Positions 50,311-64,000 of a stretch of DNA of 64,000 nt are shown piece by piece (the stretch's first letter is position 1; each line of letters opens with the position of its first letter). The notes under the pieces were generated by a model. That model was not told the DNA's origin. It searched no databases and worked only from the letters and a program-made list of their open reading frames with translations. The stretch covers positions 2,728,001-2,792,000 of the forward strand of contig JBCAMK010000001.1 in NCBI GenBank assembly GCA_038503065.1. The letters are read 5' to 3'. Source of the stretch: Paragyromitra xinjiangensis (lineage: Eukaryota > Ascomycota > Pezizomycetes > Pezizales > Discinaceae). Made by a program: the position numbers and the translations under genes.

Positions 50311-51238
50311 TTATTCTGTATCTGTTTCATACTCAGAACTATCTGATGACACAATATCCTCTCCTCCAAGCTCCACTGCTTGAGTAGCATCAATTCCCGA
50401 AATATGAAGCCTTTTTCTTTCTTTAGGTGGTGACAACAATGACAATATGGGATTGATGTTTCCATTCCCTACATGACGTTTAATATGCAGTCTAAGATTG
50501 CAATACATAACTGTGTGTAACTTTCTTTCATCTTTATCTTTATCCTCATATCTTATAGGATAGTAAAACCCGTTTTGCAAAAATAATCGAGTACACCACA
50601 TCATCGTGGTTTCCGGAAGATATATATCATGATCTGTTTCAACTCATCCTTTTAGCATATAAACGTTAATGTTAGATTGTAACAAAAAAATGAGACTGTT
50701 ACCATAACCATCCAGTCTTTGTTTTAACTCATTTAGTTTTTGTTTGCAAGGCTTTACTCCATAATTCACAACACCATCGGGAGGATAATGATAGTTGTAA
50801 TCTGGTTGACCAGTAGGCAAATTTGGCCTATTGGGTTGATGACGAATTTTGTGATCATTCCAGATTCTCACAAAGTGCTGTAGTCTTATTCGTACAAGTG
50901 GAAGGTAAATAAAAAGTAAAGCAATTTGATCCTCGTCACTACCATCAAATAAATTCTAATGCTGCAGCCAAATAAAATGCTTCTAAATATGTGTTAGTTA
51001 CTAGTAACTAGTTCAGGGTGCAGGTAAATTATTACTTTAAACTCAATTTCCGCACTTTTTGTTAGTTGACTCCACCAGCTTTCAATTCGTACATTTTTTA
51101 CTGATGTACCATACCAAAAAACCTCCGGGAATGTGATAGCTGGATTATTTACTTGATGTAATTCCCAAAAACTCTCAGCAGTCATCATAGTTTCAGTTCC
51201 TCGATCAGCTCGTAAATGATAGGGGAAACAGTTTTGCG
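50311..51238 (-). pseudogene. Integrase-core-like gene, 5' part cut off by the LTR insertion
   Basis: Reading away from the LTR edge, the minus strand gives YHLRADRGTETMMTAESFWELH, then FWYGTSVKNVRIESWWSQLTKS, then RIWNDHKIRHQPNRPNLPTG...YHYPPDGVVNYGV, and a C-terminal acidic piece ending at 50311. The DRGTE and RIESWW blocks hold an Asp and a Glu placed as in the integrase-core-like (DDE-type) domain found in many uncharacterised fungal and animal genes. Frame changes between the blocks could be introns or decay. Its N-terminal part is missing here and should lie beyond the other LTR, past position 64,000. Confidence 0.6.
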
Positions 51239-51640
51239 TTGTGGGCGAGTGCGTAGGAGACTCTGCCAGTTTGACGCAGAGATCTGATATTCGCTGCCTT
51301 TGCGCTGTGAAGAAGAGGCTGCGTCGACGCGGACTTCGATGTCCTATAGCGAGGCACATATATGCGGATTATTAGGCGTGGAATCGAGCGAATAGGAAGG
51401 ATATATTCGATACGAATTAGGCAAGGCAAGAGCCCGCCGCAAAGGAATACGATACAAAAATAGATAGGTAGGTAGATAGATAGATAGGAAAGAATTGAGT
51501 AGTGAATAGGAATAGAATCGACAGGAAATGTTGAACAGTAATAGAAATCCTCCGCTGTCAATACCCCTAACCCTTATACACGTGACCGCGCACGTGACTT
51601 ATCCATCGCTTCCTTCCACCTCCCGCGCGCCCCACCACAA
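51239..51640 (-). repeat. 3' LTR, about 402 bp
   Basis: Ends are TTGTGG...CCACAA (element orientation), a 6-bp inverted terminus including TG...CA. The left edge matches the internal edge of the other copy exactly and then diverges. A purine tract lies directly outside the right edge. Position 51321-51330 carries the GCGTCGACGC palindrome. TAGATAG microsatellite DNA lies at about 51470-51486. Confidence 0.88.
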
Positions 51641-51652
51641 TCCTCCCCTCCT
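51641..51652 (-). promoter_or_regulatory. Polypurine tract
   Basis: Read on the minus strand this is AGGAGGGGAGGA, directly before the 3' LTR start TTGTGG. This is the expected plus-strand primer of reverse transcription. Confidence 0.8.
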
Positions 51653-51806: not shown

Positions 51807-53508
51807 CTACCAATTCATCCGCTTCCTCCGTCGCTTCTTCTTCCTTCCGACGCCGTGAAAGCTTCCGCTAGCAGGAGACTGCGTCGACGCGGAGTCTTCT
51901 GCCAAAACGCGAGTTTCCGGAGGAGGCATTTCCTCATTAGCAGCAGCAGGCGGGGCAACGTCAGCAGCAGACGAATCCTTAACAGCAACAGCAGCTGCGG
52001 CGGCGACATCAACAGGCGGATCCTCCAATTCCTTCTCCGAGTCCTCCAATTCGGGCTCTATTTCCTTTTCCACCTCTAATTCCTCCCTAATAGGAGATAC
52101 CACTTCCTCTTCCGACTCCACCTCCACTTCCGACTCCACCTCCACTTCCGATTCCACATCCGAACCAAATCCTGCCAGCGAATAACCTCCACGCAGCAAC
52201 GAATCCTTGCCTTCCTTGGTAATTCGCATGGGAGGTTCCCAAGTGCCCGTATCTCTGGCGTGGAAATAGGAATTCGGACCGAAATCTCGCCTCTCCGCCC
52301 ACTCCTGGACCTTATACCCCTCCCTCATAGCCTCCATCAACTTCCTCCGCACTTTTCTCACCAATTTCCACGCCTTCCGCTCATCTGCCCCCAGCAAGAT
52401 CTCCAACTCCCAACGCACACGAGCCGATTCCCAATCCACCAATCCCAACAGCGCATCTCCGATCCCCCACACCTCGGACCTCTGGCATACTCGCAAAACT
52501 TGTTTTAAAGCGGCTATGGGCGTTAATTTGCCCAGTAGGATTCCGTGGCAGCACGGTCAGCGAGCGGTGCGCTTCAGCGATGTCGGCACGTGAGCCCATT
52601 TCCAGGAATTCCATGGCTTCTCCGTCTCCCTGGATGGCTGTGGGCCAATTATTCACCGTTCTCCGCTGCAGAATTGCCTTATCTTTGGCGCCGGCAGTTG
52701 CTCCGTGAATTAGGTGCGGCAACGAGATTCGAAGGTCTCCAGGTGCGCAAACCACGTTCGTTTCCTTGCCAAATGACGCCTCATCCTCCTGCAAATACGT
52801 CTTAGTGGTCCGGAAAGAATTCCCATCCTTGGCATCTCCGCGCGCCTCCACACGAGCCCACCAATCCGCGAGGTGATTCTGGAAGCCTTCAACGACCGCG
52901 GTACAACCTTCTGGGATTTCCTGATCCAGCGAAAGCGAGGTTTGGATGTGATTCACTCCCACGCCCGTATCTAGAGCCTTCCGAGGATTCAGATCTATAT
53001 GGCGGAATTGCGTATAATCTCCAGGCAGCGAAAACTTAGCGTAGTGAGGAAAGGCCAGCATACGATAGGCGCAGTCCGACCTCGCAGCCAGTACCAGGAC
53101 GTAATATACGGGATCCTGCCTAATTGCCTGCTGTAGTACAGAATGATAGCAATTCCGCAACCAGCCCGTTGAATCACTCCGTTGATGGTGGAGATATAGG
53201 TCGAATTCCTCCGAGATCTTAGCCCAAAGCTCCGTTTCCTCCGTCAACCACCTAAACGCCGGAACCACGCAATTGCCTTTCTCTAGAAACGCATCCCAAG
53301 CCTCCTGACTGCCAAAGCGCGCAAAGATTTCCCCTCTATCAAACTGCGGAAGTTCCCACGGAATTGGCTTCCACAGCAAAGACCCCAAATCGTCCGCCTC
53401 CACTTTAGCCCTCGCTCCTTTCCTAAACCAACCATAAGTCGCTGCCGCAGCGTGAAGATTCCCTATTGAATCCCAGTGCCTGTGGATGTGCTGCAGGCGC
53501 AGCGTCAT
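51807..53508 (-). CDS. Accessory ORF 2: putative 2OG/Fe(II) dioxygenase with acidic and basic tail, one frameshift
   Basis: From the ATG at 53508 the frame encodes a double-stranded beta-helix pattern. The HxD is H170-D172 in QFRHIDLNP; then come NHIQTSLSLDQEIPEGCT and VVEGFQNHLADWW, APGDLRISLPHLIHGATAG with distal H268, and QRRTVNNWP with the 2OG-binding Arg at 282/283. These are the iron- and 2-oxoglutarate-binding residues of the dioxygenase superfamily; no known subfamily could be assigned. Near 52520 the frame shifts by one; the other frame (to 51807) gives a helical region (WGIGDALLGLVDWES...), a Glu/Ser-rich stretch with repeated VESEVE, SASTQ at the palindrome 51881-51890, and a terminal KKKRRRKR nuclear-localisation-like cluster. 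Substrate unknown: DNA, RNA or protein oxidation are all possible. Confidence 0.7.
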
Positions 53509-53887
53509 CAGCAAAAAACGGAAATGCCGTAAAGTCCCTCTGGACGCCAAAATGCCATGGCGGAAACATACCCTTCTGGATGCAGCGTGGTCCAACTACA
53601 TGTCGTCCAGAAGACATGGGGTAGGAGCTCTGGTCATCTGGAAGGCAGCGCTGGAAGCTCTAGCCGTCTGAAAGGCAGCGCTGTAGGCCCTGGTTGTCTG
53701 GACGAGCTCTGGTCATCTGGACGAAGCCTGTCGACCTCTGTACGTCCGGGGGAACCCCTTGCAGGGCCAGCACATTTTGGTAGGTTTGGAATTGCACGCT
53801 TTGCTAGTATGGCTCGAATTCTTTCTATTGATACATCTCCTACTATTCTATGAATCTATCTATCTATATATATGTACAAACATTTAC

Positions 53888-54800
53888 TACCCACAGAGAA
53901 TCGATCAATTGGCGCAGGGAGCGGAAGCTGCAGCAGCGAATTGACCATATGGCGGAAGCGGAGGAAGCGCAGGCAGCGAATCAACCATATGGCGCAGGCG
54001 CAGGCAGTGCAGGAAGCGAATCGACCTATTGGCGCAGGCGCAGGAAGCTCAGGCAGCGAATTGACCTATTGGCGCAGGCAGCGGAAGCTGCTGCAGCTGT
54101 GGCGGAGGCGGCGGAAGCTGCAGCAGCGAATCGACCTATTGGCGCAGGCAGCGGAAGCTGCAGCAGCGAATTGACCATATGGCAGAAGCGGAGGAAGCGG
54201 CGGAAGCTGCAGCAGCGAATCGACCATATGGCGCAGGCGCAGGCGCAGGCAGCGCAGGCAGCGAATCGACCTATTGGCGCAGGCAGCAGAAGCTGCAGCA
54301 GCTGTGGCGGAGGCGGCGGAAGCTCAGGCAGCGAATCGACCTATTGGCGCAGGCAGCGGAGGCTGCTGCAGCGAATTGACCAATTGGCGGAGGCGGAGGA
54401 AGCTCAGGCAGCGGATTGACGACCTCCAGGAGGCGGCGGAAGCTCAGTCAGCCGATCGACCATATGGCGCAGGCAGCGGAGGCTGCTGCAGCGAATTGAC
54501 CATATGGCGGAAGCGGCGGAAGCGCAGGCAGCGAATCGACCTATTGGCGCAGGCAGCGGAAGCTGCTGCAGCGAATTGACCATATGGCGGAAGCGGAGGA
54601 AGCGGCGGAAGCTGCTGCAGCGAATCGGCCATATGGCGGAAGCTCAGGCAGCGGATCGACCATATGGCGGAAGCGGAGGAAGCGGCGGAAGCTGCAGCAG
54701 CGAATCGGCCATATGGCGGAAGCTCAGGCAGCGGATCGACCATATGGCGGAAGCGGAGGAAGCGCAGGCAGCGAATCGGCAACCTGCCAGAGGCTGGCAG
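53888..54800. repeat. Minisatellite, about 21 variable units of roughly 33-70 bp
   Basis: Units carry GAATYGACCTATTGGCGCAGG or GAATYGACCATATGGCGGA followed by AGCGGAAGCTGCWGCA-type tails in variable number. All three plus-strand frames are open over long stretches, and a minus frame is open too, since the unit lacks stops. It separates the two accessory ORFs. A GGCA microsatellite follows at about 54845-54870. Upstream, 53625-53730 has a second, looser repeat (CTCTGGTCATCTGGA). Confidence 0.9.
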
Positions 54801-55260
54801 CGAATTTAGTTGCCTTCTGAGCTCGCTTGGGCGGAAGCAGCGAGGCAGGCAGGCAGGCAGGCAGGCAGTGTGAATCGAACCGAGTCTAGGAGGCATATCA
54901 GCGGGAGTCAAATAAACGGAAGCAAGACGTTACCTAGGAGGTTCTTCGGAAGCAGAGCTTATTGCTCGAGGCCTAAATCTCACGATGTTAGTAGGGAATG
55001 GGTGGGAGAGAATAGGGGGAAGCAGATGGGAAGGAATAGGGGGAGGTGTCTTAGTAGGCGTTGCTTAGGCGACACCTAAGCAAAGCTTGAAGATTTTGAA
55101 AATCGCTAAGTGCCTAGGGTCAGGGTTTTGACTTAGCGAAATAAAAAAAAAAGATCCGGCAGCTATACGCATCGGGAGGGTGTCGGACGCACACAGGTCG
55201 GTTGGTGAAAGCACGGGCTTCAGGAAGGGCGCTCGGGTGTTGGCTGGCGGTAAGAGTTAG
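54801..55260. other. Spacer inside the retrotransposon
   Basis: Between the minisatellite and accessory ORF 1. It holds the GGCA microsatellite and GGGGGAAGCAGATGGGAAGG-like purine-rich DNA; no gene seen. Confidence 0.5.
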
Positions 55261-56583
55261 TCAGAGCGCATCTAGATGCAGCACAGGCGCAGGCAGGCCG
55301 TCAGGAGGGGTTTGAGAGGCAATGCCCCTCTTCCAGAGGGTCAAAATGCCATTATACAATGTTACCCTTCTGGATGCCTTTTTTTTTTTACTGATGGTCA
55401 TCTCCGCGCGGTTCAGGCGCTTGACATACAGGCCAACATACGATGCCAGCCGCTGTAAGTGCTCCCAGCACAGATTATCAAGCCCTGCCTCCACGCCATC
55501 CAACAGATATTTCCCCTGCGAGGCAAGCGGTACCACTTCTGCGCTTCGATATTTGCGCAGATTAGATACCCACGCCTTGGAGAGATATTCTCCACAACCA
55601 CATGCTTCGGACTTATGGATATCCTCTTCCTCTTCCTCTTCCAATTCCACACCTTTCTGCACCTCTTCCGCTTCTTCTTCCGCCACTTCCTTCCCCTTTC
55701 CTTTTTCCAATTGGCGCTGCGTTTGCGCCTCCACAGCCTTACCAACCACCTCATCCTCCTCCGGCACCAAGCGAGTCTGCGTCGACGCGGAGTCCTGATC
55801 TTCCGCCCCACTCTCCACTTCCTCCACTACTCTCTCCAGCGACTTCCCCTTCTTAGCAGCCTTTGGCTTAATCTGCTTCGGCCTAACTTCCACAGGCCAC
55901 GCCAACACCAAATCCTCATCCTGAACCTCCTCTTTCGTTTCCTTCCCCTCTCCTGCCTTCGTTAACCATTCCTTGGCATATGCCACATCTTTAGGCATGA
56001 ATACCAAGGCTTTCTGTTGGCCGGAGGTTCGATCCTGCAGGCGCATTCGATAGCCTGCATCCAGCGCCTTCCAGGCTTGGCTCATTGACCACCCATCTCG
56101 AGCAATTGCCGCTAATTGACGTAGGAAATGCTCTGAGAATTGGCGCAGGCGGTACTCTTGTGGATCGAACTCCTCCTCCCATTGGTCGCCCCACTTCTCA
56201 CAAATCAACTTCCTCGCCCTTTCCTTCCTGCCATCTGTGGCTCTATAACGCTCTTGCGCCGGCGCAATCACGTTATCATAGTCCATCATAGCCCTAAACG
56301 CCGCTTCTCCACCAAACTGATCCCATAGCCCCTCTTTCTCCACATAATCGGCCCAAATCCGCGAGATTCCCTCATCTGATACCTCCCGCGCCTCTGCAAA
56401 CACCTCCAGGGCATCCTTAGCAACGGCGGCTCGAGATACGGGATCTTTGTGCGCTGCCATGGTCTTCTCGATTAGACTGCGCAGGCCATGTTTGGCGCGC
56501 TGCTGCAATACGCTTTCTCTCGTGATTTCGACGATTTCGTTGGTGCCCGTATGGCCTGAGGTTTTCGGCGCTCTGTGTACCAT
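55261..56583 (-). CDS. Accessory ORF 1 of the retrotransposon, 440 aa, unknown function
   Basis: ATG-started, uninterrupted frame in the same orientation as gag and pol. I recognise no domain. Residues 20-220 are helical and charged (VLQQRAKHGLRSLIEKTMAAHKD, YRLRQFSEHFLRQLAAIARDGWSMSQAW). The middle is a long acidic and Lys/Glu-rich segment containing SASTQ at the GCGTCGACGC palindrome (55779-55788). The end has CGCGEYL, WVSNLRKYR, and a basic KKKKASRR cluster that could be a nuclear signal. There is no signal peptide or TM span, so it does not look like an env gene. Its position after integrase suggests a subgenomic or readthrough product. Confidence 0.7.
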   Translation of the reverse strand: MVHRAPKTSGHTGTNEIVEITRESVLQQRAKHGLRSLIEKTMAAHKDPVSRAAVAKDALEVFAEAREVSDEGISRIWADYVEKEGLWDQFGGEAAFRAMMDYDNVIAPAQERYRATDGRKERARKLICEKWGDQWEEEFDPQEYRLRQFSEHFLRQLAAIARDGWSMSQAWKALDAGYRMRLQDRTSGQQKALVFMPKDVAYAKEWLTKAGEGKETKEEVQDEDLVLAWPVEVRPKQIKPKAAKKGKSLERVVEEVESGAEDQDSASTQTRLVPEEDEVVGKAVEAQTQRQLEKGKGKEVAEEEAEEVQKGVELEEEEEEDIHKSEACGCGEYLSKAWVSNLRKYRSAEVVPLASQGKYLLDGVEAGLDNLCWEHLQRLASYVGLYVKRLNRAEMTISKKKKASRRVTLYNGILTLWKRGIASQTPPDGLPAPVLHLDAL

Positions 56584-57380
56584 TTTCTTGACCGTACTTG
56601 GCGACAGCGACTCTGACTTGCTGCTTCTCGTTTTTCTGCCTTCTGGAGTGCTTTGGGGCCAGCCGGCTCATTTATGGGAGTAAACATGGCACGCTGCTGT
56701 TTCATGATGACGTAGTAGAACAAAGAAGTGGTGCCCAACTTGAAAGCTCTGATATATATGCGTCGAGGGCCAGCTTGATAGCTGAGGTCAACTTGATATC
56801 GAGGGATCCAACTGGCAGCGAAGGCTTTCGACGAGATCCTTCCTTTAGGCGAGAGATGTAAGGGATTAGTCCTAGGAAGCAGGTTTGCTTCCCCCTCCCC
56901 TCCTAATAAAGAAGAGGTCATGGCGTTTCTGATACCTCTGCGTCATAGCCCTAAGCCCTATTCCGCCGGCGATTCCCGCAGAGCCCCAACCTTAATTCAA
57001 CTTCGACCACCGCCAAACATAGGAAAATACACTAAATCCGCCAAATACAGGTACAAAAATAGGAAAAATACAGCTAATAGAAACATAGAACTCCGAAGGA
57101 ATTAAACAGGAATTGACTGAGGAATATACGAAGGAATAGACGACTAGATAATACGAAGGAAATACAGGCAAATAGAGACGAATCAACTGACGAATTGACG
57201 AGGAGTATACAAAAGAAACGACGAATAGTAGATAAAGGAATACATGAAGGAAATATATGAAAGAAACGACGAGCTGACGAGGAATAGACGAAGGAATATA
57301 GCAAGAAACGAAGAAACAGCGAATAAGAATCCAAAGAAACGGTACAAAAGAAACTCGTAAGGGACCCCCCTTTAGTGGTA
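56584..57380. other. Spacer between pol and the first accessory ORF
   Basis: 57050-57340 is A/G-rich low-complexity DNA with degenerate GACGAAGGAATA-like words. A 149-codon minus frame (56921-56472) overlaps the next ORF and may be its 5' extension through a frame change. Otherwise I see nothing. Confidence 0.5.
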
Positions 57381-57791
57381 TTAAGGCAACTGCACGTAGA
57401 AGCCCCAGTCTTTCTTAGGCTTCACACGCTTACCACCAACCACAGAAACATCTTCCTCCATTTCCACATCTTCAGCCTCCTCTGGCATTTCCCGCGTCGA
57501 CGCGGACACCTCCGCGTCCTCCTCTCCTAACTCTTCAGCGAATTCCTCTGCGAGATCTTCTGCGATTTCCTCTGCGATTTCTCCTGCGCGTTGAAAGAAG
57601 CGTTTAACACGGTCTGGAGGCGTAGTACCGCCTAAAAGCGTGCCATCGAGCTCCTCCAAAACCACGGTGCCTACAGGAGATATTTCCCGGATTCGAAAGG
57701 GTCCACGCCACCTATTCGCCAGTTTATCACTCCATTGCTTTTCCAGCTTCAGATTATGGAGAAGTACGAGATCACCAACGCTTGGGTCTGC
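57381..57791 (-). CDS. Integrase C-terminal piece, frame-shifted from the core
   Basis: Reads DPSVGDLVLLHNLKLEKQW...NRWRGPFRIREISPVGTVVLEELDG, the usual GPF/Y-type C-terminal integrase module, then an acidic Ala/Glu tail with SASTR at the palindrome (57494-57503) and a Lys-rich end. There is no chromodomain. The shift relative to the integrase core fits a single missing base near 57791. Confidence 0.8.
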   Translation of the reverse strand, partial: ADPSVGDLVLLHNLKLEKQWSDKLANRWRGPFRIREISPVGTVVLEELDGTLLGGTTPPDRVKRFFQRAGEIAEEIAEDLAEEFAEELGEEDAEVSASTREMPEEAEDVEMEEDVSVVGGKRVKPKKDWGFYVQLP

Positions 57792-59536
57792 GAATTAGGC
57801 CGTTTTCTCCTATGGGAGTCGAAATACCGCTTATTCTCCGACCTGCTTTCTTTTAGGCGAATCGCTGCTTCCTCAATATCCTCATCTCGCATCTCCAATT
57901 GCCTGGCCCGAGCTGCCAATAAATCCGCCTTAGAGTGGATATCCTGCCACTCAATACTGCCCCACGAACTCAAGGTTATTTCCACTGGAAGCACACACTG
58001 CCAACCAAAAACGAGCTCAAAAGGCGCCTTTCCTGTGGATCTTCTGACCGTAATTCGATCAGCCCAAAGGACGGAGTGGAGATGATTAGGCCAATCCTTC
58101 GGCTGTTTGGAGATCTTCTGCAAAGCATCCACTATTTGCTGATGCCCACGCTCGACCAGCCCATTTGCCTGCGGATGATATGCAGAAACGACCTTTCTAT
58201 TGATATTATACCGATTGCACAGGCGCTCCGTAAATGCCTTATTCTCTGGCCCTCCATCCACCACAATCTTCCTAGGGCATCCGAATCGTGAAATCACCTC
58301 CTGGAATAGGAAATCCGCCACCTTCTCCGAGCTCCCTCTAGTCAAAGCACGTCCTTCCGCCCATCCTGAGAAATCATCTCTAGCGAGGACTAGATACCGA
58401 TTTCGATCACTTCCAGCAGGCATATGCACGATATCTACACAGACCTTCTCGAATAGCGAAGTGCCAAATGTAGGGTGTAATTCGTCGGGATATCTGGCGG
58501 AGGCTCGAAGTTGGCATTGCTCGCAGGTTCGAACGAATTCCTCCACATCTTTGGCTAATCCACGCCACCAAAAGCGCTGAGATATCTTCTTAAACGTGCC
58601 TTCTCTGCCTCTATGCCCTGATTCGTCGTGGAGACCCTTCAGGATTTGCTGCTTTTCTGGTCCATGGCATATCACTCGCTTTGGCGGCTGATTCTCACGA
58701 CCTCTCCGGAATAGGTGCCCGTCTCGAATTAGGAATTTAGTTGCTTCTCGTCTAAACGCCTTTCGCTGCTTTTCCGAGAGATCTTCCGGCATAGATAGAG
58801 ACTCCAGGAATTCGCCAATCTGCTGCCAACGGCCACTATACTCTCCTTTGGCTAAGCATACAAAGGGGTTAATAGGACCTCGCGTCGACGCGAACTCTCC
58901 CGCGGTTACCCGGCTGGCGAATAGTTGATCATCGAGGAACTCCTCTAATTCCTCCACATCTTCCGCTTCTGCTTCCGCCACATCCTCTTCAGTCCCCTTA
59001 CGCCTCGATAATCCATCTGCTGCAGTATGCTGCTTTCCTGGAACGTGGACGACGTCAGAATCGAAGAGGCGAATCCACGCAATCCAACGAGTGACCATTG
59101 CACCTGGAAGATCATTGGCAGGAAGATTCAGTTGGTGAACCAGCGTACGAGCGTCGATTTCCACACGGAATCTAACTCCATAGAGCCAAAAGCGCATCTT
59201 CTTCAGGGCTTTAAGCAGCCCTTTGCACTCCTTCTTCCCCGCGTCATACTGCCTCTCCGCAGGCGCCCACAACCCGCTCTCATACCTGCAAGGATGCCTT
59301 ATATCTCCCAGTAGTTGCATCAACACTGCGCCCCAGCCTTCTCCTCCGGCATCCACTCCCAAAATCAGCAATCCCGCCAGTGGTCCGTACTGTGGCGTAG
59401 CCAGCGCTGGTGCAGTAGTAAGAGCCTTTTTGATCATTTCCATTGCTTCCTCCTGTTCTTCCGCCCATACGAAACCACACCTTTTCGCTGCAGGAAGAAT
59501 AAGCGGCGCGCGATAATTGCAAATCCTTCGATCCAA
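57749..59536 (-). CDS. RNase H and integrase region of pol
   Basis: RNase H: LILGVDAGGEGWGAVL (Asp), YDAGKKECKGLLKALKKMRFWLYG (Glu) and VEIDARTLVHQLN (Asp). The tether LPGAMVTRWIAWIRLFDSDVVHVPGK is typical of gypsy. Integrase: the zinc-binding HHCC (HDESGHRGREGT...CEQC) and the DDE core with CVDIVHMPAG, VVDGGPENKAF and HPQANGLVERGHQQ. All catalytic residues are present. The frame is lost near KRPNSQT; the C-terminal integrase piece continues in another frame. GCGTCGACGC lies between tether and integrase at 58882-58891, encoding FASTR. Confidence 0.92.
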   Translation of the reverse strand: MDRRICNYRAPLILPAAKRCGFVWAEEQEEAMEMIKKALTTAPALATPQYGPLAGLLILGVDAGGEGWGAVLMQLLGDIRHPCRYESGLWAPAERQYDAGKKECKGLLKALKKMRFWLYGVRFRVEIDARTLVHQLNLPANDLPGAMVTRWIAWIRLFDSDVVHVPGKQHTAADGLSRRKGTEEDVAEAEAEDVEELEEFLDDQLFASRVTAGEFASTRGPINPFVCLAKGEYSGRWQQIGEFLESLSMPEDLSEKQRKAFRREATKFLIRDGHLFRRGRENQPPKRVICHGPEKQQILKGLHDESGHRGREGTFKKISQRFWWRGLAKDVEEFVRTCEQCQLRASARYPDELHPTFGTSLFEKVCVDIVHMPAGSDRNRYLVLARDDFSGWAEGRALTRGSSEKVADFLFQEVISRFGCPRKIVVDGGPENKAFTERLCNRYNINRKVVSAYHPQANGLVERGHQQIVDALQKISKQPKDWPNHLHSVLWADRITVRRSTGKAPFELVFGWQCVLPVEITLSSWGSIEWQDIHSKADLLAARARQLEMRDEDIEEAAIRLKESRSENKRYFDSHRRKRPNSQTQALVISYFSII

Positions 59537-60885
59537 ATCCTATAATAGGTGGCAACTCCTAGAAAAGCTCGGACTTCCGTTACTGAGTCGCAGGCAGGCC
59601 AAAGTACGATCTTTTCCACCTTCTTTGCATCAGGAAACCGCCCTTCTTCCGTACAGACGAATCCCACGATTTTAATTCCAGGCTTGCACCAGGACGACTT
59701 AATTCCCGCCACTGTGGCACCTGCTCTCTCGTAGTCTGCTAGGACTCGGTCCAAATTGACGATATGCTCCTGTACGAATCTCCGAATTCCAGGGCTTATT
59801 TCCTCGTCATCATAGCGCGAGGTTGGTCCTTTTACACCTACGTCGTCGAGAAAGACTCTGCAGCGTTCTGGAATATTATCATGCTGCGCTTTGGAATTGA
59901 TTCGCTGAAATGCCTGCACTGAATTCGTGCCTCCTTGCACCATTCGAGTATACCGAAGCAAGCCTAAAGGTGTCTGAATAGCAGTCATATCTCTGCTTTC
60001 CTCCGCTAAATCCACCTGATCATAGCCGGAGAATAGATCGATAATTGAAGCTATTGCCATTCCAGCGAATTCCTCACTGAATTCGTCAACCCTAGGAGGC
60101 AATGCCGCATCTAATATCGTATGGCTGTTGGCTTTAGTGAAAGAGGCGACTAATCGATGCCCGCCCTGCTTTTTCTTGACTAGAAACCAAGGATTTCGAT
60201 ACGGCCCGCGGCAGCGCTCTAGAGTGCCTCCTGCCATCCGCGCCTTTAGGATTTCAATAACCTCTCCTTCCAGGGCTCTGGGTGTCTTGAAAGGAGCTTC
60301 CTGCCAGGGCACGTGTGGAATCGTCCGAATTACGTGTGGAGGCTCAACTTCCGACTTGAATAAGCCAATTTCTGTGAATTCGAACGCCACGGCAGCTTCC
60401 CTATTGTATAGCATTTCCATCAAAAGCTCTCGCTCCTTCGGCTGAAGATGGCCTATGTCCATTTCCGCTATTCTTTCTTTCGTGAGGCGAGACCCTCGTG
60501 GAACACTGCTGAATTTAGGCGTAAGGATATGATCGAAAGGGCCAACAGGCTTATCCAGCCCTCGTCTCTTTTCTTCCTTCAGGCAATCCTGCTTCCAATT
60601 CGGATTTCCTTCTGCAGCGCCGCCATCACCTTTGACGTTCTGCGGGCGCACCTTCTCCTTCTTATTCTTATACAGCCTCCTGCCGCTTACTCCACTTCCC
60701 GCTCGCTGAATTTCATTCCAAACTGCCATACACCGCCGCATCCGCACCTCTCTTTCCGCACCTCGCAAGACTCCGCGTCGACGCGGAGTCTCCTGCGCTC
60801 TTCCGACCACACCCCTCACTTCCGCCACTTCCACCACTTCCGCCACTTCCTCCGGAGGTTTCCGCCGCCTCTTCTCAGTAAGCAC
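59434..60885 (-). CDS. Reverse transcriptase region of pol
   Basis: Typical Ty3/gypsy RT. After a basic, Lys/Arg-rich linker come ARMAGGTLERCRGPYRNPWFLVKKK, IASIIDLFSGYDQVDL (first catalytic Asp) and the catalytic FLDDVGVKGP (the YxDD-type box), then CTEEGRFPDAKKVEKI and FLGVATYYRIWIEGF at the start of the connection domain. The frame is lost near KGVVSYG. One missing base restores KGV-FVWAEEQEEAM, which begins the RNase H-side frame. The GCGTCGACGC palindrome occurs in the linker at 60775-60784. Confidence 0.9.
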   Translation of the reverse strand: MLTEKRRRKPPEEVAEVVEVAEVRGVVGRAQETPRRRGVLRGAEREVRMRRCMAVWNEIQRAGSGVSGRRLYKNKKEKVRPQNVKGDGGAAEGNPNWKQDCLKEEKRRGLDKPVGPFDHILTPKFSSVPRGSRLTKERIAEMDIGHLQPKERELLMEMLYNREAAVAFEFTEIGLFKSEVEPPHVIRTIPHVPWQEAPFKTPRALEGEVIEILKARMAGGTLERCRGPYRNPWFLVKKKQGGHRLVASFTKANSHTILDAALPPRVDEFSEEFAGMAIASIIDLFSGYDQVDLAEESRDMTAIQTPLGLLRYTRMVQGGTNSVQAFQRINSKAQHDNIPERCRVFLDDVGVKGPTSRYDDEEISPGIRRFVQEHIVNLDRVLADYERAGATVAGIKSSWCKPGIKIVGFVCTEEGRFPDAKKVEKIVLWPACDSVTEVRAFLGVATYYRIWIEGFAIIARRLFFLQRKGVVSYGRKNRRKQWK

Positions 60886-60901
60886 CTCCGCGCTTACTGA
60901 G
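60874..60901 (-). other. Perfect hairpin at the protease stop codon
   Basis: CTCAGTAAGC and GCTTACTGAG form a 10-bp perfect stem with an 8-nt loop. The protease stop TAA lies in the first arm, and RT continues in another frame. It could be a recoding element or coincidence. Confidence 0.6.
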
Positions 60902-61595
60902 ATCTCCCGTTTCCCGAGCTCTGCTCACGCCTCCTTCGCATCCACTGCCCCTTTGCTTCCCTTACTGAAGTGCGCGCATATCCTTCAGGCGGAACTGCCA
61001 TGAATTTGGCCTTCTTTAGGCGATCAGAGGACCAAATAGTGCCCCACATTGAGCCGTCGTCCTTATTCGTCCACTTTAGTAAGGCAGCTCGCTCGAATGG
61101 GCGCCCTAATACGAATTCGCCTTCCATTCCTGGAGATGCAAATATTGGTGTATAAACCACGGCACCTCCCACACTAACGGGCGCTTCGTGAATACAGCAA
61201 GTCAGAGGTGTGGAATCTCCAGTAATTCCGGTCATGGTCCAGTCCACTTGGTCGTCGTATGGCAAATTCAAACTCTCGAACTCCGACCAACCCATTCGAT
61301 TGATTTCTGATCCATTATCTCCCGTTGGCTGCAGCAAAACGCCGTTGATACTGATGGGAATTAGGCCTGACTCAGCAGCGTATTCGACTTGATGCCTAAT
61401 TCTCCGAGTCTGGGAATCGCGTGGAGATGCGTGTGCTTTGGAAACCTTCGCAGCTGGCGCTGGCGGCACGCCCCTGCCGTATAGATATTTCTTGAAGGGA
61501 GGAGAAATAGAGACTAATTCTGAAATACTGATATTGATCGACTTTTCCGTTGCCAGTCTGTGGAAAAGCTCTTCTTCGGAGGGGCGCCTGTGGCA
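60894..61595 (-). CDS. Retropepsin-like protease region of pol
   Basis: This region continues in the same frame as gag, but two stops (TAG AGA TGA) separate them, and an alternative frame across the junction also looks coding. The stretch SPPFKKYLYGRG leads to the protease domain, where the active-site motif reads GDNGSEIN instead of the more common DSG. VLGRPFE further on is a typical flap-end motif. The product should cleave the Gag-Pol precursor. The frame ends in TAA at 60896-60894, and RT continues in another frame. A perfect 10-bp stem with 8-nt loop lies exactly at this stop. Confidence 0.7.
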   Translation of the reverse strand, partial: CHRRPSEEELFHRLATEKSINISISELVSISPPFKKYLYGRGVPPAPAAKVSKAHASPRDSQTRRIRHQVEYAAESGLIPISINGVLLQPTGDNGSEINRMGWSEFESLNLPYDDQVDWTMTGITGDSTPLTCCIHEAPVSVGGAVVYTPIFASPGMEGEFVLGRPFERAALLKWTNKDDGSMWGTIWSSDRLKKAKFMAVPPEGYARTSVREAKGQWMRRRREQSSGNGRSQ

Positions 61596-61601
61596 TCATC
61601 T

Positions 61602-63866
61602 CTAAGGAGCTCTTCGTGGCGCAACGGGCTTCTTTTCCGGCTTCTTCGTAGGCTTATCTTCCTGCATCTCCACTTCCACAGTTTCTACTGGAGGATATGC
61701 TCTAGGCCTGGGTGCCCGAGCATTTGGCAACCCTTCCTGCCTCTCAATTCTTTTCCTCAGATCTTCCACCTTCTCCTTCTTCACTGGCGCCCTGCGCTTC
61801 TCCACACGCGCAGGTTTGACTGCAGAAACGTACCAATTCGCCTCTTCCTCTGATTCCGAATCCGAATCCAGCTCCGACTCCAACTCTTCCTCCACAACCT
61901 CCTCCTCGCTGCTTTCTTCATCTAATTCCCCTAAACGCGCCATTCTGACTTCGAAGCTCGGACCGCGGCTAGGACTGGGCGCAGCCTTAATTCGCCTCAC
62001 GCCTGGCTGTTGCGGCGGCTGCGGAGGTTGCTGCTGCTCTCGGGCTTCCACTTGCTGCAGCATATTCCTTCCCGTACTTCTCTCCCATGGCTCAACCACC
62101 TCTCCTCCGGACCCTTCTCCTCCCCAGTGAATCCTCCCGCCTACAGCCCTGTGCACTAATCCAGCGCGTTCTTTGGCCATCAAAGCAGGGCATTGATTCT
62201 TCAAATGCGCAGGATCTGCACAGAAGATGCAACGTCTTGCCGGAGCGTACTGAAGATTTGACGCATACTGAGGATTCGGAGCGTACTGCTGAGCAGGCTG
62301 CGAATTCCGAAGCGGAATTGCATTTGCTCCCGAAGCAGGTCCTGGCGCGTTATAGGCTTGCGGCGGAGGTGCTCTGGCGCCGACGTTGGCTCTGCTAAAA
62401 CTCTCCATAAATTGCGCCTGTTGGCGTAAAACCATGGCTTCCATACGCTTCGAAATGTCGTCGATTGCGCTCGTGACATCTATATTGTGGGCCTGGCGTT
62501 GAATTGGCTGCACAACTTGCGCAGTCGGCTGCGGCTGCGGCTGCGGCTGCGGCTGCGAACCTCCGAAACTGGCTGATACTGAAGGCTTCGGCTTCGTTTC
62601 CTGCGCTAAAAGCTGATCAAAAAGTGCTTCTGAAGAAAACTCACCTTTCTTCATCAATTCTTCTGTGCGAAGTGTGCCTAAGCAGTAATCCTGAGCTTCT
62701 TTCTTAATTAGGGCATATTTGCCTTGGAAGGAGCTGGGCAAGTTGACGTCCAATTTGAACTTGATTATCAGCTTCCTGGCGAGGTCTAATTGCAGCCCTC
62801 CCAGAAACAGCTGAATCTCTTGATACTCCGAAAGCATGCCTGTGGCCTTTAGGCTGGTGGAAACTGCCGTAAAGGTGCGCACAAAAGGGCGTATATCACC
62901 TGTTTTCTTCTTCTGCGCATTAGTCAGCTCTTCCAGAAACCTTACCGTATACATCTGCTGCTTCGTATCCTGCGCTCTATACTCCTCCAAAATCTCCCTG
63001 CGCAACGCCTGCCAGTCTCCATCTGCATATCCTTGCAAATAACGAATCGTGGCGCCAATAGAGCTGACACAATAGAGAGGGAGCTTCTTCACAGCCGCCT
63101 TCTCCGACTCTCCGAATTCTTCATATAGAAGCTCATAATGCTCTAGGAAATCCGTGGCATCGTTTCCATCGAAATGCGGGGCGCCGTGGGTTCCAGGAAA
63201 GGGCATATGCGTCAACTGCTTCCGAAGACCTTCGATAAGCAAATCTGCAGAGCCGGCAGTAAGTGGCGTGCCTGCTGTTGGCGTGGAATTGACTGTGGAC
63301 CGTGGAGTCGACATGCTTATTGCGATTGATAGGGCGAATACGGTTAATACTGTGAGTGCTGCGAATTCTGCTGTGAATCGTACGAAGTCTGATTCTTTCT
63401 GCTCTTTTCGCGGGGCATTGGGGGGGTATACGTCTCCCGTGGCGTCTGCTGACTTCTTGCAAATTCGGCAGCTGAATCTCCGAGATCCCGTATTAAATGT
63501 ACAGCCTAGCCCTTCCTCAGAAGACTTCCCTGCCACAAATTTTTCTTTGCGCAGTCCGTCGCTCTTAGCAAGCCAACCTCTGCCGCAATAGGCACAGTCT
63601 AATCCGCTGCGGAATTTCTCTGCCGCCTCAATTGCTCTATATCCCGTAACTTCGCAGCCTATTCCGCACAGGGAATTCTCTGCCGAAGAAAACTCTTCTA
63701 GTGTCCTATAGCGTCTCCACAGTCTATTCCGCCGTGGGAATTCTCTGCCGAATAGCCTCTCTAAATCCCGTGCCTTCCGCGTGTGCGTGTTTGTGCGATT
63801 CGCTGCGTGACTGCTTTTCTTCGTGCCTAGGCCTAGCGTATCAATCTCTCTGGTCGAAGGGACCAT
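61602..63866 (-). CDS. Gag polyprotein with long N-terminal extension
   Basis: The frame is open from inside the LTR. An ATG overlaps the LTR end (63866) and a second, at 63314 (MSTPRSTVNS), is where the conserved Gag appears to start. The capsid-like region has ATDFLEHYELLYEEFGESEKAAVKKLPLYC and ITNA/LEELTNAQKKK-type helices, typical of gypsy Gag. A Pro/Gln-rich linker leads to the zinc knuckle CIFCADPAHLKNQC (CX2CX4HX4C), followed by acidic and Lys/Pro-rich tails. The 184-residue extension before 63314 has Cys pairs (CAYC, CRIC) and three imperfect 33-bp repeats in its DNA. Gag packages the element RNA in the cytoplasm. The frame ends with TAG at 61604-61602. Confidence 0.85.
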   Translation of the reverse strand: MVPSTREIDTLGLGTKKSSHAANRTNTHTRKARDLERLFGREFPRRNRLWRRYRTLEEFSSAENSLCGIGCEVTGYRAIEAAEKFRSGLDCAYCGRGWLAKSDGLRKEKFVAGKSSEEGLGCTFNTGSRRFSCRICKKSADATGDVYPPNAPRKEQKESDFVRFTAEFAALTVLTVFALSIAISMSTPRSTVNSTPTAGTPLTAGSADLLIEGLRKQLTHMPFPGTHGAPHFDGNDATDFLEHYELLYEEFGESEKAAVKKLPLYCVSSIGATIRYLQGYADGDWQALRREILEEYRAQDTKQQMYTVRFLEELTNAQKKKTGDIRPFVRTFTAVSTSLKATGMLSEYQEIQLFLGGLQLDLARKLIIKFKLDVNLPSSFQGKYALIKKEAQDYCLGTLRTEELMKKGEFSSEALFDQLLAQETKPKPSVSASFGGSQPQPQPQPQPTAQVVQPIQRQAHNIDVTSAIDDISKRMEAMVLRQQAQFMESFSRANVGARAPPPQAYNAPGPASGANAIPLRNSQPAQQYAPNPQYASNLQYAPARRCIFCADPAHLKNQCPALMAKERAGLVHRAVGGRIHWGGEGSGGEVVEPWERSTGRNMLQQVEAREQQQPPQPPQQPGVRRIKAAPSPSRGPSFEVRMARLGELDEESSEEEVVEEELESELDSDSESEEEANWYVSAVKPARVEKRRAPVKKEKVEDLRKRIERQEGLPNARAPRPRAYPPVETVEVEMQEDKPTKKPEKKPVAPRRAP
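63849..63865 (-). promoter_or_regulatory. Primer-binding-site-like sequence
   Basis: Immediately inside the 5' LTR the minus strand reads TGGTCCCTTCGACCAGA. TGG is the usual start of a tRNA 3'-end complement, but TGGTC...GACCA can also fold on itself. The priming tRNA was not identified; self-priming as in Tf1-like elements is another option. Confidence 0.5.
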
Positions 63867-64000
63867 TGTGGGCGAGTGCGTAGGAGACTCTGCCAGTTTG
63901 ACGCAGAGATCTGATATTCGCTGCCTTCGCGCTGTGAAGAAGAGGCTGCGTCGACGCGGACTTCGATGTCCTATAGCGAGGCACATATATGCGGATTATT
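63866..64000 (-). repeat. 5' LTR, partial (135 bp visible)
   Basis: Identical to 51239-51373 except one C/T difference. The rest of this LTR, the target duplication and the other half of the disrupted host gene lie beyond the window. Confidence 0.92.

Follow-up and report, generated by a model that had tools for sequence, protein, structure and literature searches.

We analysed a 64,000-nucleotide stretch of the Paragyromitra xinjiangensis genome (contig JBCAMK010000001.1, positions 2,728,001 to 2,792,000; hereafter the window). It carries a young copy of a Ty3/gypsy-type long terminal repeat (LTR) element, and the minus-strand region 51807-53508 is part of this copy. Behind integrase and ahead of the 3' LTR, in the same orientation as gag and pol, the element contains an additional open reading frame (ORF), ORF3, whose product, judged by its sequence, is probably a functional, element-encoded 2-oxoglutarate (2OG) oxygenase of PhyH-like type. 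In its predicted layout, the protein of about 1,000 residues starts with an N-terminal region, continues with a divergent PhyH-type Fe(II)/2OG dioxygenase core and a conserved extension on its C-terminal side, and finishes with an acidic tail and a basic stretch resembling a nuclear localization signal (NLS). Independently of this gene, the family shows another clear-cut property, integration at CpG-centred sites.

ORF3 belongs to the element

The genome (48.2 Mb, 22 contigs) was searched for further copies. Since only the best candidates were scored (40 of 71 for the LTR, 42 of 59 for ORF3 and 57 of 90 for gag), all copy numbers given here are lower bounds. ORF3 protein was found at 21 loci at least, matches being grouped by hand; two short fragments (C10:927295 and C10:966037) were dropped from the 21 and 20 loci were fetched. 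Thirty of the 40 LTR matches form 15 pairs, spaced 10.4-13.0 kb from start to start, eight are solo LTRs and the remaining two (on C10 and C18) adjoin truncated ORF3 copies. All 15 pairs have TGTGG...CCACA ends and enclose an ORF3 locus, and 14 of them are flanked by identical 4-bp duplications. Likewise, each of the 19 gag loci of at least 250 amino acids adjoins an ORF3 locus (the count is without one fragment of about 95 amino acids, C15:1604406, and without LTR-only matches). ORF3 is thus part of the element, just as the original prediction had proposed; none of the 15 LTR-paired copies lacks it. The LTR pairs are young, six of the 15 being identical and the two most diverged showing 12 substitutions.

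Six-frame searches of the genome with the family protein and with two of its relatives from other fungi (P0003 and P0005, see below) found no relative outside the family, apart from 31 matches confined to the first 30 or so residues of the window ORF, which stem from a nested insert. The possibility that ORF3 is a host gene was rejected on these grounds.

The region 51807-53508 had originally been described as an ORF of its own, starting at a methionine at 53508. Real coding sequence it is, but only the C-terminal half of an ORF3 of about 1,030-1,090 amino acids, so that a stand-alone ORF was rejected, as was the proposed start: this methionine is an internal residue beside a nested insert of about 1.9 kb. 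The N-terminal half lies at 55393..56705 on the minus strand, with its ATG at 56705; it was recognised by the ATG position, by tblastn with the ORF3 of copy L002 and by its co-linearity with the Peziza protein P0003. The insert splitting the two halves (53509..55396, ends approximate) is bounded by imperfect terminal inverted repeats, CATCAG[T/C]AAAA, contains repeats of 40 bp (53860-54812) and is present neither in the C9 copy nor in any of seven open ORF3 frames found elsewhere. Translation, profile comparison and tblastn place the PhyH-like core at 52384..53508, minus strand, its last 30 or so codons beyond a frame break, while the C-terminal region with the acidic tail, located by tblastn with the L002 ORF3, occupies 51807..52472 (minus strand) in a frame different from that of the core. 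The window copy thus has two ORF3 frame breaks, one near 56.6-56.8 kb, in the N-terminal half, and one at about 52.4-52.5 kb; the open frame around the core spans 404 amino acids (52381-53595) and the C-terminal continuation is open over 51807-52556. The basic cluster KKKRRRKR, predicted near the C-terminus, does lie there (51819..51842, minus strand) and may serve as an NLS.

At seven of the 20 fetched loci, one of the 20 being the window's own, ORF3 is a single open frame of 1,028-1,090 amino acids, some of these frames being clipped at the end of the fetched stretch. Chance can hardly produce such a frame: 404 amino acids are free of stops in the window, at least 1,028 at the seven loci, and the ratio of nonsynonymous to synonymous substitution rates (dN/dS) is 0.09. 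Moreover, a protein database search returned homologues of ORF3 at E values of 1.7e-99 and 1.0e-94.

The end of the nested insert, which supplies the first 30 or so residues of the window ORF, recurs at 31 further places in the genome. L092 and L093, both solo LTRs of the gypsy family, seem to be lodged within or next to elements related to this insert, one flank resembling the 40-bp repeats and another being CATCAGCA, so that mutual insertion of the two families is possible.

Selection on ORF3

Among the seven intact ORF3 copies, dN/dS is 0.09 for the whole frame, 0.09 for the N-terminal part, 0.07 for the core and 0.23 for the acidic tail. The RNaseH-integrase stretch of pol, compared in eight copies, gave 0.05, and in five copies compared for both the values were 0.08 for the core and 0.04 for pol. 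A codon was left out of a comparison wherever one of the two copies has a stop there; among the eight pol sequences, three hold a single stop. Purifying selection acts on ORF3 almost as strongly as on pol.

Copies L016, L017 and L018 are 97.6-98.8% identical to intact copies at the DNA level, yet contain many small indels, and the LTR pairs of two copies among them (C17a and C2a) differ by just 1-2 substitutions. In L017, gap openings number 34 and mismatches 41, and many of the frame breaks in young copies are small indels. These are either assembly errors, sequencing error in the assembly being among the candidates, or marks of defective copies mobilised in trans.

Similarity to PhyH-type oxygenases

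Translation of 53508 to 52441 on the minus strand reads H170-I-D172, PGDLRISLPHLIH268 and RR from 14 residues beyond this histidine (R282), which bears out the original prediction of an HxD motif, a distal histidine and an arginine at these numbers. H170 (52999..53001), D172 (52993..52995) and H268 (52705..52707), all on the minus strand, are the proposed Fe ligands, and R282 (52663..52665, minus strand) the proposed 2OG-binding arginine. The seven intact ORFs keep both histidines and the aspartate without exception, and R282 in six cases.

The database searched for relatives holds 5.8 billion proteins, of which about 8,000 candidates sharing most words were scored per later search. Four relatives from outside the genome were among the candidates scored: P0003 from Peziza echinospora (1,039 amino acids), P0002 from Maublancomyces gigas (847), P0005 from Orbilia ellipsospora (471) and the fragment P0001. 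The Peziza protein is co-linear with ORF3 between its residues 242 and 1003, with about 34% identity, and the Orbilia protein spans the core and C-terminal part only. All four ligand residues are present in the window copy, in L006 and L012, and in the Peziza and Orbilia proteins. In these five sequences an LDQE motif follows HxD at +24, the distal histidine stands at +98 or +99 (+112 in Peziza) and the arginine 13 to 16 residues further on.

For comparison we used ten plasmid PhyH proteins (10 of 20 matches listed) and one PhyH piece from this genome. Read from alignment columns, all 11 have the H, D, H triad with the distal histidine at +85 to +100; the first arginine follows at +6 to +12 in ten and is missing in one, and an AL.D-like motif stands at +20 or +21 in six. 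A profile of the family (four sequences, three after filtering) aligned by hhalign with that of the 11 PhyH proteins at a score of 40.3 (P 9.4e-5). Of 200 column shuffles of the family profile, the best scored 25.0 and the average was 14.9; reversing the profiles gave 14.5 and 20.9, and the scores of five further ORFs of the element lay between 8.6 and 17.7. The match covers 78 columns including the distal histidine; HxD falls on HxD only in a forced longer alignment. The family also contains LDQE...C and GD...HG blocks like those of PhyH.

The sole fitting match in Pfam scans was PhyH (PF05721) on the Peziza protein, at E 0.0066 and 17.2 bits against a curated cut-off of 22 bits; the window protein, P0002, P0005 and L006 gave no PhyH match. 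Since no match exceeds the cut-off, and since the ligand spacings are similar but unequal to those of PhyH, we call the core PhyH-like and do not file it as a member of PF05721. Scans of ORF3 protein and its relatives against Pfam, NCBIfam and PHROGs yielded nothing else of use. The four-sequence profile found nine weak matches in the PDB (E 0.39-2.8), seven of which are entries for PrhA, AusE and verruculogen synthase (variants of about three enzymes), aligned around the distal histidine; we take these enzymes to be PhyH-type 2OG oxygenases. Sequence searches of the PDB with single proteins returned nothing useful. A profile of the whole ORF3 matched ribosomal protein eS1 (presumably of Plasmodium type; E 0.003) at profile positions 420-529 and, with an E value of 4, DnaK. 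We consider these matches probably spurious, as the stretch concerned is a charged linker outside the 2OG core. Scans of viral and genome contig collections detected no relatives, and a scan of viral contigs with this genome's PhyH was likewise negative.

The original prediction of a 2OG/Fe(II) dioxygenase is supported by the ligands kept in Peziza and Orbilia and by the profile score above all 200 shuffles, but not at the level of a Pfam cut-off. Its comparison with TET/JBP enzymes found no support, PhyH being the family that the core resembles. The family profile scored 12.7, a background value, when compared with three Tet_JBP-like proteins of this genome, and PF12851 was not matched in the Pfam scans, so that TET/JBP identity was rejected; the PhyH profile scored 28.7 against the same three. 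This control is thin, two of the three proteins being near-identical and under the Pfam cut-off. AlkB (PF13532) gave no match in Pfam scans at E <= 1 for the window protein and at E <= 10 for P0002, P0003, L006 and P0005, a search in which no dedicated profile comparison was made.

Integration at CpG-centred sites

Insertion edges were read at 23 insertions, that is 15 full copies and eight solo LTRs (including L057-L094), and every one is CpG-centred. In 20 of them the 4-bp duplication NCGN is exact on both sides. At the other three (gcag/gcgg, ACGT/ACAT and GTGT/GCGT), CG is kept on one side and the other side differs by one CpG transition; these sites entered the tally by the CG-keeping side. 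As CpG makes up 4.6% of the dinucleotides of the window, such centring is beyond chance. Little preference is seen at neighbouring positions, with a lean to G just outside the left edge (15/23). In a control, three copies of another gypsy family (L096-L098) have 5-bp duplications with no CG centre (TTCCA, GTATT, CTAGA). Duplications were readable in these three of eight control loci, seemingly of one family; L095, L101 and L102 have no LTR pair, and L099 and L100 no clean one.

There are two published precedents. The Drosophila element ZAM, also an LTR element with a CG-containing target, inserts at CGCGCg, a site bound by its site-specific integrase (PMC2527525); its target is longer and its host an insect, whereas the family described here needs just NCGN across 23 sites. 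A study of 12 plant genomes found GC-rich central dinucleotides in the 4-bp duplications left by LTR elements (PMC6911290). Among the titles and abstract openings listed for integration of LTR elements at CpG or CG, none reported it from a fungus.

CpG content and mutation

The CpGs of the element had been described as well preserved, and observed/expected ratios of 0.94-1.01 in two family copies agree with this, compared with 0.81-0.84 in four copies of other gypsy elements and 0.50 in an older-looking fifth. Such a CpG content fits escape from methylation, but it fits plain youth as well, which would be explanation enough. Strong repeat-induced point mutation (RIP) of the family was rejected, the indices, read in the generally accepted way, being 0.91-1.01 for CpG observed/expected, 0.60-0.68 for TpA/ApT and 1.37-1.51 for (CpA+TpG)/(ApC+GpT). 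Differences at CpG are nevertheless frequent between some copies (20 of 59 substitutions in L008 and 36 of 139 in L013, unpolarised), which blurs the picture. The regions around two other gypsy matches, L100 (C6:1326500) and L102 (C20:928500), differ from the ORF3 family by strong CpG depletion, with an observed/expected ratio of about 0.50.

Architecture of the window copy

All coding parts of the element read on the minus strand. The 3' LTR (51240..51639, ends TGTGG...CCACA) is a direct repeat of the 5' LTR at 63867-64266, of which 63867..64000 lies in the window and the rest beyond its end; the two differ by 2 substitutions in 400. The CpG-centred target-site duplication at 51236..51239 reads GCGT on the plus strand and ACGC in the orientation of the element; the identical 4 bp lie outside the 5' LTR. 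A sequence resembling a primer binding site (PBS), TGGTCCCTTCGACCAG, lies one base inside the 5' LTR (63850..63865, minus strand) and would match a tRNA; ATGGTCCCT stands at this position in all 15 LTR-paired copies. The polypurine tract AGGAGGGGAGGA (51641..51652, minus strand), read in the window copy, is one base from the 3' LTR. ORF3 had been predicted inside the LTRs, in gag-pol orientation and next to this tract, and there it was found, between integrase and the 3' LTR.

The ORFs are arranged as is usual for such elements, all on one strand: gag-like, protease-like, reverse transcriptase (RT) and RNaseH-integrase, of which only RT and integrase are clear in Pfam. The gag ORF (61602..63995) is 797 amino acids from stop to stop, with a weak Retrotrans_gag match (E 0.068, under cut-off) and a CCHC motif seen by eye; the protease region (60894..61595) has a weak Asp_protease_2 match (E 0.16, under cut-off). 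RT (59434..60924) is marked by RVT_1 (1.6e-10), and RNase H with integrase (57749..59539) by RT_RNaseH_2 (7.2e-19), Integrase_H2C2 (1.4e-19) and rve (9.8e-10). The ORF at 57381..57794, weakly matching SH3_Tf2-1 (E 0.068, under cut-off), is probably the C-terminal tail of integrase. This order of RT, RNaseH and integrase is the one expected for Ty3/gypsy, and the assignment is made by LTR, PBS, polypurine tract, target-site duplication and pol domain order.

Discussion

We propose that ORF3 encodes an active oxygenase that would work in the nucleus on behalf of the element, a nuclear role being suggested by KKKRRRKR. There it would most likely oxidise a methyl or another C-H group on nucleic acid or on a chromatin-associated protein, and so blunt host silencing of element DNA or RNA. 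The part of this that concerns the substrate is a guess, which taken by itself we consider possible and somewhat less likely than not; an anti-silencing role of ORF3 is plausible and unproven. The genome has DNA_methylase (PF00145) matches at three places and four Tet_JBP matches (L028-L031, on C6, C15, C1 and C12), two of them over the cut-off and the C1 and C12 copies nearly identical, which make a methylation-based conflict plausible. By analogy with what is described for Pezizomycetes, these Tet_JBP copies are perhaps transposon-borne. A more specific version, in which a PhyH-type oxygenase has come to demethylate nucleic acid or chromatin, protects the element from silencing by methylation and is tied to CpG-restricted integration, seems to us unlikely.

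Several observations weigh against assigning an active oxygenase to ORF3. The hhalign probability of the family-PhyH match is just 58.8, and single members do worse, P0005 scoring 21.2, within the range of the shuffles, and P0003 37.0 over 33 columns. No Pfam family reached its cut-off in any member scanned, and the two best PDB matches of the four-sequence profile are ribosomal proteins. Two AlphaFold predictions (predicted local distance difference test scores 32.7 and 36.0) showed no beta-helix and are, with five sequences, uninformative. The first histidine is lost in P0001 and P0002, which read QID and QIN, and R282 is replaced by tryptophan in L010, the adjacent residue still being arginine. 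Finally, the four outside relatives are protein sequences alone, without genomic context.

An active PhyH-like enzyme need not be an anti-silencing factor. PHYHD1-type enzymes are reported to use free 2'-O-methyl nucleosides (PMC12709175), and a nucleic-acid substrate for ORF3 is therefore not to be assumed. The resemblance of its core to PhyH would suit an enzyme for such nucleosides or another small molecule, which we hold to be rather unlikely: the fusion to an N-terminal region of about 500 amino acids and the basic, NLS-like end suggest a macromolecular setting, and ORF3 is very divergent from characterised PhyH. It is improbable, too, that the protein has kept the PhyH fold, lost catalysis and now binds or scaffolds nucleic acid, Gag or chromatin. 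The missing histidine of P0001 and P0002, the tryptophan of L010 and the large size with acidic tail and basic end would agree with such a role, but the conservation of the ligands in the intact ORFs, the presence of all four in Peziza and Orbilia and the low dN/dS of the core speak for catalysis. That the HxD...H...R pattern has arisen by coincidence in a different fold, as the lack of a Pfam family at cut-off and of a confident structure might suggest, is quite improbable in view of the profile score above 200 shuffles, the superposition of HxD when forced, the shared LDQE...C and GD...HG blocks and the convergence of weak PDB and Pfam matches on 2OG oxygenases in the same region. A host gene captured once and carried as a dispensable passenger, or an env-like protein, for which only the position of ORF3 downstream of integrase, where env genes lie, would speak, is hardly credible given its presence in all 15 LTR-paired copies, a dN/dS near that of pol, the lack of a host relative in the six-frame searches, the co-linear protein in Peziza and the absence of a Pfam envelope match.

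If ORF3 is a PhyH-like oxygenase, its nearest precedent is an orchid element, the sole oxygenase-bearing gypsy element among the papers examined. This Ty3/gypsy element of Phalaenopsis likewise has an extra Fe/2OG oxygenase ORF with ligands retained (PMC9289625). It is a 25-kb plant element whose domain is of AlkB/ALKBH5 type, with RNA demethylase activity in vitro (PMC9289625), whereas the fungal family, known here from sequence, fuses a PhyH-like core to an N-terminal region of about 500 amino acids. Fungal mobile elements with 2OG oxygenases of TET/JBP type have been described, including in Pezizomycetes; these are DNA transposons and Helitrons, retrotransposons being reported to lack such genes (PMC12730594), while ORF3, with its PhyH-like core, belongs to an LTR element. 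PhyH and PHYHD1 dioxygenases (PF05721; PMC12709175) share with ORF3 the layout of HxD, GD...H and Arg and are linked to it by profile, but their Pfam model misses ORF3 at its cut-off, and ORF3 bears long extra regions. LTR retrotransposons of bdelloid rotifers also carry an enzymatic, non-envelope ORF3, which is a GDSL esterase/lipase or a DEDDy exonuclease and no oxygenase (PMC5408684). Among the papers listed that pair oxygenases or PhyH with retrotransposons no such fungal element was found, and among those on Morchella with gypsy LTR elements nothing further of relevance.

The family is thus a fungal retrotransposon, still young, with an apparent 2OG oxygenase of a class other than TET/JBP that is kept under selection. 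An extra gene so well preserved, together with the CG at every insertion edge read, suggests a jumping gene equipped for the chemical editing of something in its host. Should the link between demethylation and CpG-restricted integration prove true, the element would insert at the methylatable dinucleotide and bring along an enzyme that keeps CpG open, a PhyH-class counterpart of the TET/JBP genes in fungal DNA transposons, among elements for which no such genes have been reported. With a defined protein in hand, the family makes it testable whether retrotransposons bring oxidative counter-silencing enzymes of their own.
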